A stretch of 64,000 nt of DNA from Terrimicrobium sacchariphilum. Its GTDB lineage: Bacteria; Verrucomicrobiota; Verrucomicrobiia; Chthoniobacterales; Terrimicrobiaceae. Within the stretch, counting starts at the first letter, position 1. The number at the start of each line of letters is the position of its first letter. The notes under the pieces are model-generated. The model was given only the letters and a program-made list of their open reading frames with translations. It was not told the origin of the DNA and did no database searches. The stretch is from assembly GCF_001613545.1 (NCBI RefSeq), contig NZ_BDCO01000001.1:124001-188000 (forward strand), given 5' to 3'. Below, in pieces: positions 22,236 to 29,814 of this stretch. A program made the position numbers and the translations under genes.

Positions 22236-22685
22236 TTATCCGATAGTTGGCAGAAGATTGGAGCCGATTGCCCGATCGATGGAAAGGTGACCGCCGCCGA
22301 GGAAAAGCAAGGCCAGGCCCGAGGATAGGATAGTCAGCGGGAGCTGGACGTTTTCAAAGGTCGTCCCACCATGAACGTAAAAAATGGCCGCCCCCATGAG
22401 AATCACTACCAGCAGACCGCCCAGGCGAGTGAGAAGACCAAAGAACAGAAGCACCACAACGAGGAGCTCTGCAATGATGGCTGCCGAGATCAGGATAACG
22501 GGAACATTCACGCCCTCGGCGGAGGTCCAGGCATGGACCGTGGCCATCCACCCCTCCCCTCCGAACCAGCCGAACGCTTTTTGACCGCCCTGATAGAGGA
22601 ATATCGCCACCAAGGCCATCCGGAGAAAAAACGGGCCAAAACTCGGCGGAGTCCGAAAGAAAAGATACACCGGATTGCTCGACAC
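22236..22685 (-). CDS. DoxX family membrane protein
   Basis: This 149-residue protein has four predicted membrane helices (about 17-35, 60-85, 88-105, 115-135). It shows the DoxX pattern, including FLRMALVAIFLYQGGQKAFGWF and ELLVVVLLFFGLLTRLGGLL. DoxX-like proteins are small inner-membrane proteins, often linked to redox stress, and their reaction is not established. It ends 48 bases before tRNA-Gly on the same strand and is divergent from the CPBP protease gene, with 84 bases between starts. Confidence 0.85.
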   Translation of the reverse strand: MSSNPVYLFFRTPPSFGPFFLRMALVAIFLYQGGQKAFGWFGGEGWMATVHAWTSAEGVNVPVILISAAIIAELLVVVLLFFGLLTRLGGLLVVILMGAAIFYVHGGTTFENVQLPLTILSSGLALLFLGGGHLSIDRAIGSNLLPTIG

Positions 22686-22769: not shown

Positions 22770-23468
22770 ATGTCCGGCCGCAAATCTCTCCCACCGCCGC
22801 TCCTGGCCTACACGGCTCCGTTCGTCGTGTTCCTGTTGTTCCTCGCCATGGAGCAGGGAATTTCATCGCTCGGGGCAGAGTCCGGCCAATGGTGGCTGGC
22901 GACTCCAAAGTACTGGGTCTTCCCACTCCAGACTCTGGTTTGCGGCGGGATATTGCTTTATTTCTGGCGGCATTACCAGTTTGGCCCGCTGGCCCCGGGT
23001 TGGATCGGCGTTCTCGGCGGGCTGGTGATTCTCGGCCTCTGGATCGCCCCGCAGGCGGTCCTCGGCTTTGCTCCTCGGACGACGGGCGGGTTTGACCCCT
23101 ACACGTTAGGTGCGGAGGGAACCACGCCCCTCTTAATGATCGCTGCCCGGTTCGCCCGCCTCGTGATCGTGGTCCCGCTGGTGGAAGAGATTTTCTGGCG
23201 AGGCTTCCTTATGCGCTACCTGATCAAGGAGGACTTTCAGAAAGTCCCCTTCGGCGCGTACTCCCACCTGTCATTTTTTGGCGTTGCGGGGTTGTTTATG
23301 CTGGTGCACAGCCAGGCCGACTGGCCCGCGGCGTTTCTCTCCGGTATCATTTTCAACGCCATTGCCGTGAAGACGAAGAGCCTGTTTGCCTGTATAGTGG
23401 CCCATGCCGTGGCTAATCTCGGCCTCGGGATGTACATCATGACAACGCGACAGTGGGGATTCTGGTAG
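22770..23468 (+). CDS. CPBP-family intramembrane metalloprotease (CAAX protease-related)
   Basis: I start it at ATG 22770 (MSGRKSLPPPLLAYTAPFVV), because everything upstream in this frame overlaps the divergent DoxX gene. The 232-residue protein has about eight hydrophobic segments. It carries the three CPBP motifs: EExxxR (E139, E140, R144 in VPLVEEIFWRGFL), FxxxH-like (H180 in LFMLVHS) and HxxxN (H212 in VAHAVANLGLG). It looks like the CAAX-protease-related family often associated with exosortase/PEP-CTERM systems. A PEP-CTERM protein is encoded 36 kb away but no exosortase is in the window. It precedes nadE by 4 bases. Confidence 0.85.
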   Translation: MSGRKSLPPPLLAYTAPFVVFLLFLAMEQGISSLGAESGQWWLATPKYWVFPLQTLVCGGILLYFWRHYQFGPLAPGWIGVLGGLVILGLWIAPQAVLGFAPRTTGGFDPYTLGAEGTTPLLMIAARFARLVIVVPLVEEIFWRGFLMRYLIKEDFQKVPFGAYSHLSFFGVAGLFMLVHSQADWPAAFLSGIIFNAIAVKTKSLFACIVAHAVANLGLGMYIMTTRQWGFW

Positions 23469-25104: not shown

Positions 25105-25195
25105 ATGAGAAAATTCCCCTGTCTGCCTCTCGGGGAAATAACTGCCCCCTAGGCTTTATCGCGGCTCTATGCTATTGGTCAGGCTTGCCTTCCAA

Positions 25196-26461
25196 ATGAA
25201 AAAACACGGCCTTGTGTGGCTCATCGCAGCATCTGCTGCATTCGTAACTTCTGGAGCTCCGGCGACCGAACGCGGCAACTCCGACCTCGTTTTCCAGGGA
25301 AAATCCATCGACCAGATGGTCGTCGAGTACATGCGGGAAAAGAAAATCCCGGGCCTCTCCGTGGCCATAGTACAGGCTCCGTACATCACGCGTGTCACCG
25401 GCTACGGATATTCCGATACGGGCCGCAAGCTCCTCAGCGCCTCCCGGACCTTGTTTCAGATCGGGCAGATGGCCGAGGCCTACACAGCGGTAGCCGTGCT
25501 CCAACTGGTCGAGGACGGCAAGGTCAAGCTGGATGATCCCATCGAGCAGCACGTCCCCCTCACCCCGGCACCATGGCACGGCGTGACGGTCCGCCAGTTG
25601 CTTCAGCATCAATCCGGCCTGCCTGACTACACAAAGGCCACTCCGAAAAACCCGGGAGATCCGCCGGCCCAGATGTTCCAGGCAGTCGCCGAGCAGGGAC
25701 CTCTTTTCCCTCCCGGTTCCCAATACGCACCGAGCGCCACGGATTACCTGCTCCTTCAGCTTCTCATCGAGACAGCGAGCGGACAGAGTTACGAGAGTTT
25801 CGTTCGCGCCCGCCAGTTTGACCGGCTGGGACTCAAGGAAACCTTCTTCGCCGGAGAAATCCCCCAGTTACCCCGTGACCTGCCTGAGGGCGGCGAGAAG
25901 CCGAAAAAATTTCTCCAGGAGGCTGTCTTCATCAATCCTGTGGAACCCGCCACCGGCTACCGGGACGATGACCTGAAACCTGTCCCCCTTTCCGACGCCC
26001 TCTTTCGCTCCGCCATTTACGCCTCGGCCTCCGATATCAGCTTCTGGGACATCGCACTGGCTGGTGACCTGATGCTGAAAAATGCCGACCTCAAGAAGCT
26101 CGTCTTCACCCCGGCCAGCATCAAGACAGACATCCCGACCTCCGGCCCATGGCGCTTTCCGGGGCGTCCCGGTCTCATGATTGCCTCGGGTAGCGCAGAT
26201 GGATTCTCGTCCGTGCTCTGCCGCTTCACCGACCCCAAGGACCTGCTTTGCGTGACCGTCCTCGCCAACCGCGAGGGCATCGACCTTGAGCCGCTCGCCC
26301 TGCAAATCGCTGGTGCTTACGATCCCTCGCTCGGTCCCAAGCCAAAAGCCACCCCCGCCGCCACGCCCACTCCTGCACCCGCAACCTCGCCCACTCCAGC
26401 CCCGAAACCGACGACAACGCCTGTCCCGAAGCCCTCATCGACTCCGACTGCCACCCCGTAA
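25196..26461 (+). CDS. Exported beta-lactamase-fold protein without catalytic residues
   Basis: Read from ATG 25196, it has a signal peptide (MKKHGLVWLIAASAAFVTSG) and about 421 residues. The serine beta-lactamase/DD-peptidase fold is clear (PGLSVAIVQ, VLQLVEDGKVKLDDPIEQ, VRQLLQHQSGLPDYT). The catalytic motifs are gone, however. The usual SxxK is Q91-M-A-E94, the usual YxN aligns with P179-S-A181, and the HTG/KTG position reads A-S-G. It is therefore predicted to be non-enzymatic, perhaps binding peptidoglycan or a peptide. The last 45 residues are a proline/threonine/alanine repeat (KATPAATPTPAPATSPTPAP and similar), like a wall-spanning or linker tail. The next gene, also exported, starts 68 bases downstream. 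Confidence 0.85.
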   Translation: MKKHGLVWLIAASAAFVTSGAPATERGNSDLVFQGKSIDQMVVEYMREKKIPGLSVAIVQAPYITRVTGYGYSDTGRKLLSASRTLFQIGQMAEAYTAVAVLQLVEDGKVKLDDPIEQHVPLTPAPWHGVTVRQLLQHQSGLPDYTKATPKNPGDPPAQMFQAVAEQGPLFPPGSQYAPSATDYLLLQLLIETASGQSYESFVRARQFDRLGLKETFFAGEIPQLPRDLPEGGEKPKKFLQEAVFINPVEPATGYRDDDLKPVPLSDALFRSAIYASASDISFWDIALAGDLMLKNADLKKLVFTPASIKTDIPTSGPWRFPGRPGLMIASGSADGFSSVLCRFTDPKDLLCVTVLANREGIDLEPLALQIAGAYDPSLGPKPKATPAATPTPAPATSPTPAPKPTTTPVPKPSSTPTATP

Positions 26462-26529: not shown

Positions 26530-27300
26530 ATGCCTCGATCGCCTCTACCCTGCCTCGCCATACTCGGCTGCGTCATCACCCTGACGGGAGCACCACTGGC
26601 CGCGCAACAGGTCATCGTGCCTGAGGACCCGATCTCGGAGGCTCCCATCGCCTTGCAGGAGATGCGCGCTGGATACCCTCGACTCTCCAAGGCCACTCCC
26701 GACCAATTGCAAGAGTATCTGGACCGCGTCGACAAACTGCAAAAAGCGGCGGAAGCTTACGCGCAGACCGGCAAATCGCTCCAAGCCTCCCTATATTACA
26801 GTCAGGCCCTGGAGGGTATCTCAAAGCTGTCGACGTCACGCCCGCAATGGAAGCCCGAGGAAATGCAGCAGCAAAAGAGCGTGATCCAATCCGCAATTGC
26901 AGCGTTGCCTCCGACCACGCCATCGAGTGCGGATGAAACAGCCACGATCGCCCTGCTGGCCGATCAGGTGAGCGATGGTAAGCTTGCCCTCTCCTGGAGC
27001 TTGCATGCGGTGAATCTCTCCGCCGATGAAGCCGCCCGGCACCTCGATGTCTCGGTGAGCTACGACTCCCTGCCCGCCAAGCAGCGCAAGGCCCGCCTGC
27101 TGGCCAATCAGGTGTCGCCAGATCCGTCCGGGGAAAGTGGCCGGTTTGCCGTTCGACAGGAGTTCGCCTGCCCCGCAGGAGTGACCAAGGCTTCAATACG
27201 CGCCGATTTCTTCGACCAGGACCTCTTCACAGAGTCCAGGGCCCTCGTGCGCGGCACCGAGGAAGCATCCAACAGGCAGACTCCGAAATCCGCCGACTAA
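26530..27300 (+). CDS. Exported protein of unknown function
   Basis: I choose ATG 26530 because it yields a signal peptide (MPRSPLPCLAILGCVITLTG, cleavage after LAAQ). The mature part of about 230 residues has a central helical region (AEAYAQTGKSLQASLYYSQALEGI) that looks like one or two TPR-type hairpins. A beta-rich end follows (DVSVSYDSLPAKQRKARLL). No family was recognised. It follows the inactive beta-lactamase-like gene on the same strand by 68 bases, so the two may act together in the periplasm. It ends just before a hairpin shared with the convergent OsmC gene. Confidence 0.65.
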   Translation: MPRSPLPCLAILGCVITLTGAPLAAQQVIVPEDPISEAPIALQEMRAGYPRLSKATPDQLQEYLDRVDKLQKAAEAYAQTGKSLQASLYYSQALEGISKLSTSRPQWKPEEMQQQKSVIQSAIAALPPTTPSSADETATIALLADQVSDGKLALSWSLHAVNLSADEAARHLDVSVSYDSLPAKQRKARLLANQVSPDPSGESGRFAVRQEFACPAGVTKASIRADFFDQDLFTESRALVRGTEEASNRQTPKSAD

Positions 27301-29301: not shown

Positions 29302-29814
29302 TCACCACGACTCAACATATCTCCGATCAGGCGGTATGTTGTTCGTTTTCTTCGGATCCTGCTTACTTGGATCGGTCCATACAGCGTACATCGACCTAAC
29401 TTTTGCCTTGCCGTTCGTCCCTGCATTTTGGATGTCGCTGGAGTAGTTCGTGTCGTAGGCGATCTGGTACGGCCCTCCCCACGGATCGAGAAACGCGCCA
29501 TTCGTATACCCTCCCTTACCGGATTTGTAGTACGGAACCTCGATGAAAATGATCCTTCTGGCGTTCGTTCCCATGAGTGCATCGAGCAACGCGCCTCTCA
29601 CCTCGGTGAAGCTGTTGGTTCCCCATGGACCAACGCCGTACTCGGTTTCGTAGGCTCGACACGCGGTAGCGATCTGCACCGCGTCATTTCGAGCCTGCGC
29701 CTTCCTTGCAGCTGTAATGGCTGATCCAACCGCCGGGAAAAGGAGAGCCATCAGGATACCTATGATCGCGATGACGATCAGGAGTTCTATGAGCGTAAAG
29801 GCTTTCGAGCGCAT
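29302..29814 (-). CDS. GspG-like type II pseudopilin / prepilin-type protein
   Basis: This 170-residue protein opens MRSKAFTLIELLIVIAIIGI, a type IV prepilin signal with the conserved +5 glutamate. The residue before the cleavage site is Ala instead of the usual Gly. A single N-terminal helix runs into a soluble domain with ACRAYETEYGVGPW and FLDPWGGPYQIAYDTNYSSD. The latter resembles the DPWG-PY calcium-loop region of the major pseudopilin GspG. It is an orphan: no other secretion genes lie nearby. Many Verrucomicrobiota carry numerous such stand-alone proteins. It follows a small membrane protein gene with one base between stop and start, so the two are translationally linked. Confidence 0.85.
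   Translation of the reverse strand: MRSKAFTLIELLIVIAIIGILMALLFPAVGSAITAARKAQARNDAVQIATACRAYETEYGVGPWGTNSFTEVRGALLDALMGTNARRIIFIEVPYYKSGKGGYTNGAFLDPWGGPYQIAYDTNYSSDIQNAGTNGKAKVRSMYAVWTDPSKQDPKKTNNIPPDRRYVESW

Follow-up and report, generated by a model that had tools for sequence, protein, structure and literature searches.

The gene at positions 25,196 to 26,461 of the window (the whole 64,000-nucleotide stretch of Terrimicrobium sacchariphilum DNA analysed here) encodes a protein of the class C beta-lactamase/S12 fold in which the catalytic letters of all three active-site motifs are gone. This loss is common to all 14 aligned members of a family that forms its own clade. The shared loss and the purifying selection acting on the domain are best explained by an exported protein that is maintained but does not hydrolyse, and to this extent the original prediction of a purpose-built non-enzymatic periplasmic protein holds. 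Its envelope location would follow from a signal peptide read by eye. We put at roughly 0.6 the probability that the protein is a maintained pseudoenzyme, that is, an exported S12/class C fold that does without Ser-Lys-Tyr acyl-enzyme chemistry and serves as a binding, sensing or adaptor component.

Gene and domain organization

The features of the gene are as follows (window coordinates).

25196..26461, + strand: gene for an apparently catalytically dead S12/class C beta-lactamase-fold protein (open reading frame of 421 aa; PF00144, E 2.5e-47)
25196..25264, + strand: probable Sec signal peptide, residues 1-23 (KK, hydrophobic core, A-P-A), read by eye; largely conserved in both congeners
25307..26278, + strand: PF00144 domain, residues 38-361 (profile match)
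25373..25384, + strand: family-specific Q60-A-P-Y63, invariant in the family and rare or absent in other S12 proteins
25466..25477, + strand: former SxxK motif, now Q91-M-A-E94 (sequence and alignments)
25730..25738, + strand: former YxN motif, now P179-S-A181 (Ser180 in 14/14 and Ala181 in 13/14 family members)
26183..26191, + strand: former H/K-x-G motif, now A330-S-G332 (Gly332 kept in 14/14 family members)
26249..26251, + strand: Cys352 (family 14/14, other S12 rows 3/41)
26333..26458, + strand: Pro/Thr/Ala-rich tail, aligned with the place at which fused relatives carry a C-terminal DUF302; evolves faster than the domain
26530..27300, + strand: downstream exported protein with no family assigned, a neighbour within the genus

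In a profile search the window protein scores 162 bits against PF00144 (curated cut-off 27), and its best solved structure by sequence is 2qmi (E 3.1e-27, or 5.2e-33 with the family profile). These matches bear out the beta-lactamase fold that had been predicted. NCBIfam class C models also match, although all 25 matches listed are far under their cut-offs. An alternative ATG at 25169 would add nine amino acids; the start at 25196 is common to both congeners and is followed directly by the signal-peptide-like stretch. AlphaFold2 models had mean pLDDT values of 31.9 (3-row alignment) and 44.1 (6-row alignment), too poor for reading the pocket. The 50 Foldseek hits listed for the 6-row model all belong to the beta-lactamase and wider S12-type group; at TM scores of about 0.2 and rmsd values of about 21 Å, however, they add nothing beyond the sequence.

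Loss of the catalytic motifs

We compared the motifs in an alignment of 14 family rows and 41 other S12 rows. Ser91 is present in none of the 13 readable family rows and in all 40 readable rows of other S12 proteins, and Lys94 in 0/14 and 40/40 readable rows, respectively. Tyr179 is likewise missing from the family (0/14 versus 41/41), as is His330 (0/14 versus 37/41), and Lys does not stand in for His at position 330 in any of the 14 family rows. The window protein therefore has none of the SxxK, YxN and K/H-[ST]-G motifs by which active S12/class C enzymes are recognized. The readings Q91-M-A-E94, P179-S-A181 and A-S-G given in the original prediction, together with their numbering, proved correct, and so did its claim that all three active-site elements are changed. 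Orthologues with an intact SxxK had been named as the observation that would speak against it; none occurs among the 14 family members, an outcome that favours the claim.

The control set is broader than the alignment. Outside the family, 44 distinct S12 loci were read, and every one keeps SxxK. They comprise the 41 alignment rows plus L089, L091 and L092, some of them mutually orthologous; very short or tail-only matches (L015, L016) and repeat copies of the same genes were left out. One alignment row, L070, lies outside the 40 of 41 readable for Ser and Lys, and its motif reads SITK. Within the window genome, SxxK is likewise kept by each of the six further PF00144 proteins found.

Position 91 in the family is Q, P, E or R (the letter in row L055 is less sure, owing to a one-residue insertion here), and position 94 is E, D or Q. 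At the latter, E or D is found in 7/7 rows of the branch that contains the window protein and Q in 7/7 rows of the branch fused to DUF302. Each branch keeps to its own kind of replacement, which looks like fixation and not like drift.

The family also has residues of its own. The window protein carries QAPYI in the family alignment, and QAPY is present in 13/13 readable family rows; among other S12 proteins, Q occurs in 2/38 rows, A in 2/39, and P and Y in 0/39. Invariant or nearly so in readable rows, and family-specific, are Q60-A-P-Y63, R66, Q103, Q207, S282, F321, M328 and C352.

Distribution and phylogeny of the family

A first search of 39 genomes, mostly of the same family and order, found the gene proper only in the genus of the window; the other matches that were read are ordinary S12 proteins. 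In 387 genomes of the phylum, matches listed at E <= 1e-25 came from the genome of the window, eight members of genus g23, one genome of another class (G173) and G317, whose gene keeps SxxK and is an ordinary S12 protein. At least two g23 genomes (G043 and G061) have no match at this threshold. Genus g23 may be Akkermansia, for which two putative beta-lactamase genes are named in the accessible part of one report (PMC9415379). Of the eight g23 genomes with the gene, seven are represented in alignment A2 and two in alignment A6, L032 being omitted (in-frame TAG). A search of 137 genomes of the order of G173 added only G403, and the gene there keeps SxxK.

The class search (384 genomes, same threshold) added the family genomes G591, G489, G574, G486 and G466. 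It matched 52 genomes: 16 with a family member, 14 with other matches that were read, and 22 without a locus, which were left out of the reading. The family is thus scattered, with 16 of the 384 genomes of the class among the 30 matched genomes whose matches were read. A plasmid search found three relatives in soil bacteria, on Novosphingobium resinovorum pHR1a and in Novosphingobium sp. P6W and Rhizobium sp. 11515TR, at 92% query coverage and 45-48% identity to a g23 protein. The viral contigs searched held no family relative; they gave four S12-like matches, three of which were used as alignment rows. To date, members of the family have come from Verrucomicrobiota and Alphaproteobacteria.

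A 55-row tree places all 14 members, including the window protein, together on one side of a branch with support 100/100. Within this clade, the window branch (the window protein, L002, L003 and L055-L058; support 100/99) has Lys94 replaced by Glu or Asp, and the other branch (support 96/93) has it replaced by Gln and is fused to DUF302. The other clade members are 36-92% identical to the window protein and mostly have open frames. Most simply, the catalytic set would have been lost once, in the ancestor of the family. In the open-access literature we found no paper on a family of dead beta-lactamases fused to DUF302; subscription papers were mostly outside this search.

Selection and integrity of the gene

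Two congeners, LR76 (QAYZ01000016.1; filed under Spartobacteria, Verrucomicrobiota) and a metagenome-assembled genome (JAFKMU010000016.1), encode proteins 92% and 88% identical to the window protein that keep QMAE, [PQ]SA and ASG. The frame is open over its full length in the window and in both. For the three congener pairs, dN over residues 25-378 is 0.030, 0.054 and 0.050 and dS 0.81, 1.41 and 1.44 (Nei-Gojobori), giving dN/dS ratios of 0.034-0.038 that are rough, since two dS values exceed 1. Selection on the domain is clearly purifying. The Pro/Thr/Ala tail evolves faster, with dN of 0.11-0.20 over 39-41 codons.

Two relatives have interrupted frames. In G574 the orthologue (L080:7380-9000) is split over several frames, with DUF302 in a different one; the breaks are either a metagenome assembly error or real breakage. 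In G147 (L032 / L047), a g23 genome, there is an in-frame TAG in the N-terminal part of a fusion gene that is otherwise open.

Fusion to DUF302

A profile search found PF03625 (DUF302) in the L031, L035 and L039 proteins and in the three plasmid proteins, and G591 has a DUF302 match inside the gene. Among the 11 verrucomicrobial family genomes, five (G574, G591, G058, G067 and G173) have a DUF302 match, in each case a single one located at the family gene. The window genome, both of its congeners, G489, G486 and G466 gave no DUF302 match, and the window protein itself is without PF03625. As the window protein belongs to a branch mostly without DUF302, the C-terminal fusion defines one branch and not the clade. 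Given that G574 is a member of the window branch and that DUF302 follows its gene, in another frame, the simplest history is probably that the fusion is ancestral and that DUF302 has since disappeared from most of the window branch, including the window gene. Just upstream of the fusion gene in G591 is an ORF of 95 aa (L078:6800-7087) with no Pfam or NCBIfam match.

Gene neighbours in relatives

In G466 (locus L082) the gene directly follows TetR, OEP, HlyD and RND (AcrB-type) genes on the same strand, as assigned by Pfam, and the ORF order in G486 (L081), of the same genus, is identical. For G173, the gene just upstream is of ArsR type. As the neighbours differ between lineages (RND pump, ArsR regulator, nadE), context gives no single role.

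The plasmids have a neighbour in common. At all three loci the fusion is directly followed, on the same strand, by a gene that matches NF052225 (thiosulfate dehydrogenase; 332-344 bits against a cut-off of 300), the sole match in each record. An NCBIfam scan of two of the products gave this name, and searching the records located the match on all three; the products have no significant Pfam match and no PDB match. Relatives of this protein occur on 24 plasmid records, and the fusion is present at 80% or more of its length in 3 of the 24. We read these three records and six others, two of the latter being from Paraburkholderia fungorum. Annotated near the gene at five of the six are DoxD, substrate-binding proteins, c-type cytochromes, DsrE, DsbC/DsbD/TlpA or a TauE-type exporter. 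The sixth is from Methylocella: there DUF302 is encoded by a gene of its own, two genes upstream, and ArsR and RND genes lie further up. The fusion is not among the annotated features of any of these six loci. In the annotated plasmid records listed, the NF052225 relatives (L077:9527-10327, L075:9724-10305, L076:9524-10309, H19-H39) are called 'hypothetical protein' or 'transcriptional initiation protein Tat', the latter perhaps because of a Tat signal.

We infer that the NF052225 protein is of the same kind as the thiosulfate dehydrogenase AFE_0042 of Acidithiobacillus ferrooxidans, which the accessible part of a review describes as a roughly 25-kDa enzyme whose gene is present in two copies, clustered with doxDA and rhd (PMC6335251). 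DUF302 genes are also reported in sox clusters of Acidithiobacillia and Sulfitobacter, and in some Sulfitobacter the DUF302 gene adjoins that for 5-aminolevulinate synthase, according to the portions available to us (PMC5037610, PMC11034169); a hemA gene is present in the P6W plasmid cluster as well. In Thiobacillus thioparus, by the available part of another report, DUF302 is absent from the sox operon and present elsewhere in the genome (PMC5248467). The family shares DUF302 with these proteins of sox or thiosulfate clusters, and on the three alphaproteobacterial plasmids it likewise adjoins a predicted thiosulfate gene. The Thermithiobacillus DUF302 protein differs in being 191 aa long, with no fusion to a beta-lactamase fold mentioned in the accessible text, and the window protein differs in having no DUF302 (PMC5037610, PMC5248467, PMC11034169).

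NF052225 has no match in the 11 verrucomicrobial family genomes, the window genome included, and SoxB has none above cut-off in 14 genomes or records (three weak matches lie below it), with none in the window genome. The sulfur link may therefore not hold outside Alphaproteobacteria. Also weighing against the preferred reading are the presence of the fusion in just 3 of the 24 plasmid records, the sox operon of T. thioparus without DUF302 and the scattered distribution of the family.

Possible functions

The protein keeps the fold, the export signal and a strong sequence constraint, and has lost the nucleophile, the Lys/Tyr general base and the His or Lys of the third motif, so it most likely binds. 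In such a scenario the altered pocket or the QAPY stretch would be the candidate site for a small ligand or a partner protein, and the protein may act as a binding, sensing or adaptor component in the envelope. In the DUF302 branch this role could lie in the metabolism of thiosulfate or another sulfur oxyanion, as the adjoining predicted thiosulfate dehydrogenase suggests. In the window branch DUF302 would have been mostly lost and, here, replaced by a flexible Pro/Thr/Ala tail.

A more specific proposal is that the DUF302-fused members are an envelope component of thiosulfate or polythionate metabolism, in which the pocket and DUF302 would bind a sulfur oxyanion or a sulfane-carrying partner and hand it over to, or regulate, the exported thiosulfate dehydrogenase, the window branch having been re-used for another ligand. 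We offer this tentatively, and regard it as possible but doubtful.

Alternative explanations

The motif columns could in principle be misaligned, with the true Ser and Lys elsewhere in the protein, and the general divergence of S12 proteins is the one thing that speaks for this. We reject it as extremely improbable, because the alignment to 2qmi has no gaps across the SxxK position, pairwise or with the family profile, the flanking blocks are typical of the family, and the same columns hold Ser and Lys in all the readable rows of other S12 proteins. Decay of a former S12 enzyme into a pseudogene would account for the lost catalytic residues, for the frame breaks in G574 and for the in-frame TAG in one g23 genome. 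This is also rejected, as very unlikely, on the full-length open frames and low dN/dS in the window and its congeners and on a loss common to a clade whose members are so divergent and mostly open. Strong purifying selection would equally be expected of a protein that has remained an enzyme by remodelling its active site for another reaction (involving, for example, Cys352, Ser180, Glu94 or QAPY/Arg66), and the family-specific, invariant or nearly invariant polar residues Q60, Y63, R66, Q103, Q207, S282 and C352 are consistent with this. However, no residue replaces the Ser or the Lys in both branches. Ser180 is common in other S12 proteins (24/41 rows) and so is not a new nucleophile, and Cys352 aligns with a position that is mostly T or A in them. 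We consider a rebuilt enzyme quite unlikely.

Another reading gives the protein a non-hydrolytic part in sequestering or sensing antibiotics or envelope stress, in concert with an efflux pump, on the model of MipB and MexXY-OprA. In Pseudomonas aeruginosa, according to the accessible part of the report (PMC10936184), MipB lacks SXXK, has degenerate YXN and KTG motifs and co-purifies with MipA; the pair is reported as a polymyxin sensor, and deletion of mipBA leads to less MexXY-OprA on polymyxin B. The family resembles MipB in being an envelope beta-lactamase fold without SXXK, with degenerate second and third motifs and a C-terminal extension, and an RND pump, affected by the MipB system there, is encoded by a neighbour gene of the G486 and G466 members here (PMC10936184, as far as available). 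Yet this pump neighbourhood is found in two genomes of one genus only, and the neighbours in the window are a CAAX protease, nadE, an exported unknown and OsmC. Moreover, MipB, which we compared by its description in the available text only, is a lipoprotein whose C-terminus consists of two eight-stranded beta-barrel domains, in contrast to the DUF302 or Pro/Thr/Ala tail of the family (PMC10936184). A role of this kind thus seems unlikely, and we prefer the maintained pseudoenzyme.

Implications for annotation

The family shares whole-domain homology and export with class C beta-lactamases and MEROPS S12 proteins (PF00144; e.g., PDB 2qmi and 4gdn, AmpC), and differs from them in being without the Ser, Lys, Tyr and His of the three motifs and in forming its own clade. 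Two of the three plasmid relatives are annotated as 'serine hydrolase' and the third record is without annotation. The Pfam name Beta-lactamase or a 'serine hydrolase' label is insufficient for counting such proteins as hydrolases or resistance enzymes. A dead beta-lactamase fold in the envelope has a precedent in MipB, as described in the accessible text (PMC10936184). What was observed in the window protein extends to a whole pseudoenzyme family spanning two phyla, a natural example of a drug-degrading fold that has become a probably non-catalytic protein. For the fused DUF302, whose function is unassigned, the neighbouring gene suggests a role in sulfur chemistry.

Neighbourhood of the window gene

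Within the genus the gene order is kept: DoxX, CAAX protease, nadE, the dead beta-lactamase gene, the exported protein and OsmC. The pairing with an exported unknown downstream that had been predicted holds at this level and is not supported beyond it. Of 213 genomes of the order, three encode the downstream protein, and these belong to a single genus; it has no tblastn match at E 1e-4 in 11 loci outside the genus. When 12 window genes were compared with these 11 loci (tblastn, E 1e-4), only a histidine kinase was matched besides the beta-lactamase-fold gene, at one locus. The P6W plasmid has an annotated type II CAAX endopeptidase two genes after the fusion, without a match to that of the window at E 1e-4.

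A scan for consensus promoters and terminators gave nothing useful, and an anti-phage role was discarded, there being no PADLOC match. The CAAX protease gene (22803-23468), directly upstream of nadE, encodes a PEP-CTERM-type CAAX-protease-related protein (TIGR03008, 163 bits, cut-off 81). The DoxX protein (22236-22685) matches DoxD weakly (E 4e-4); it also matches, at a score under the cut-off, the HvfX family, whose members are copper-binding RiPP maturation proteins. On the reverse strand, the protein encoded at 29302-29814 has, by eye, a type IV pilin-like N-terminus (FTLIELLIVIAIIGIL).
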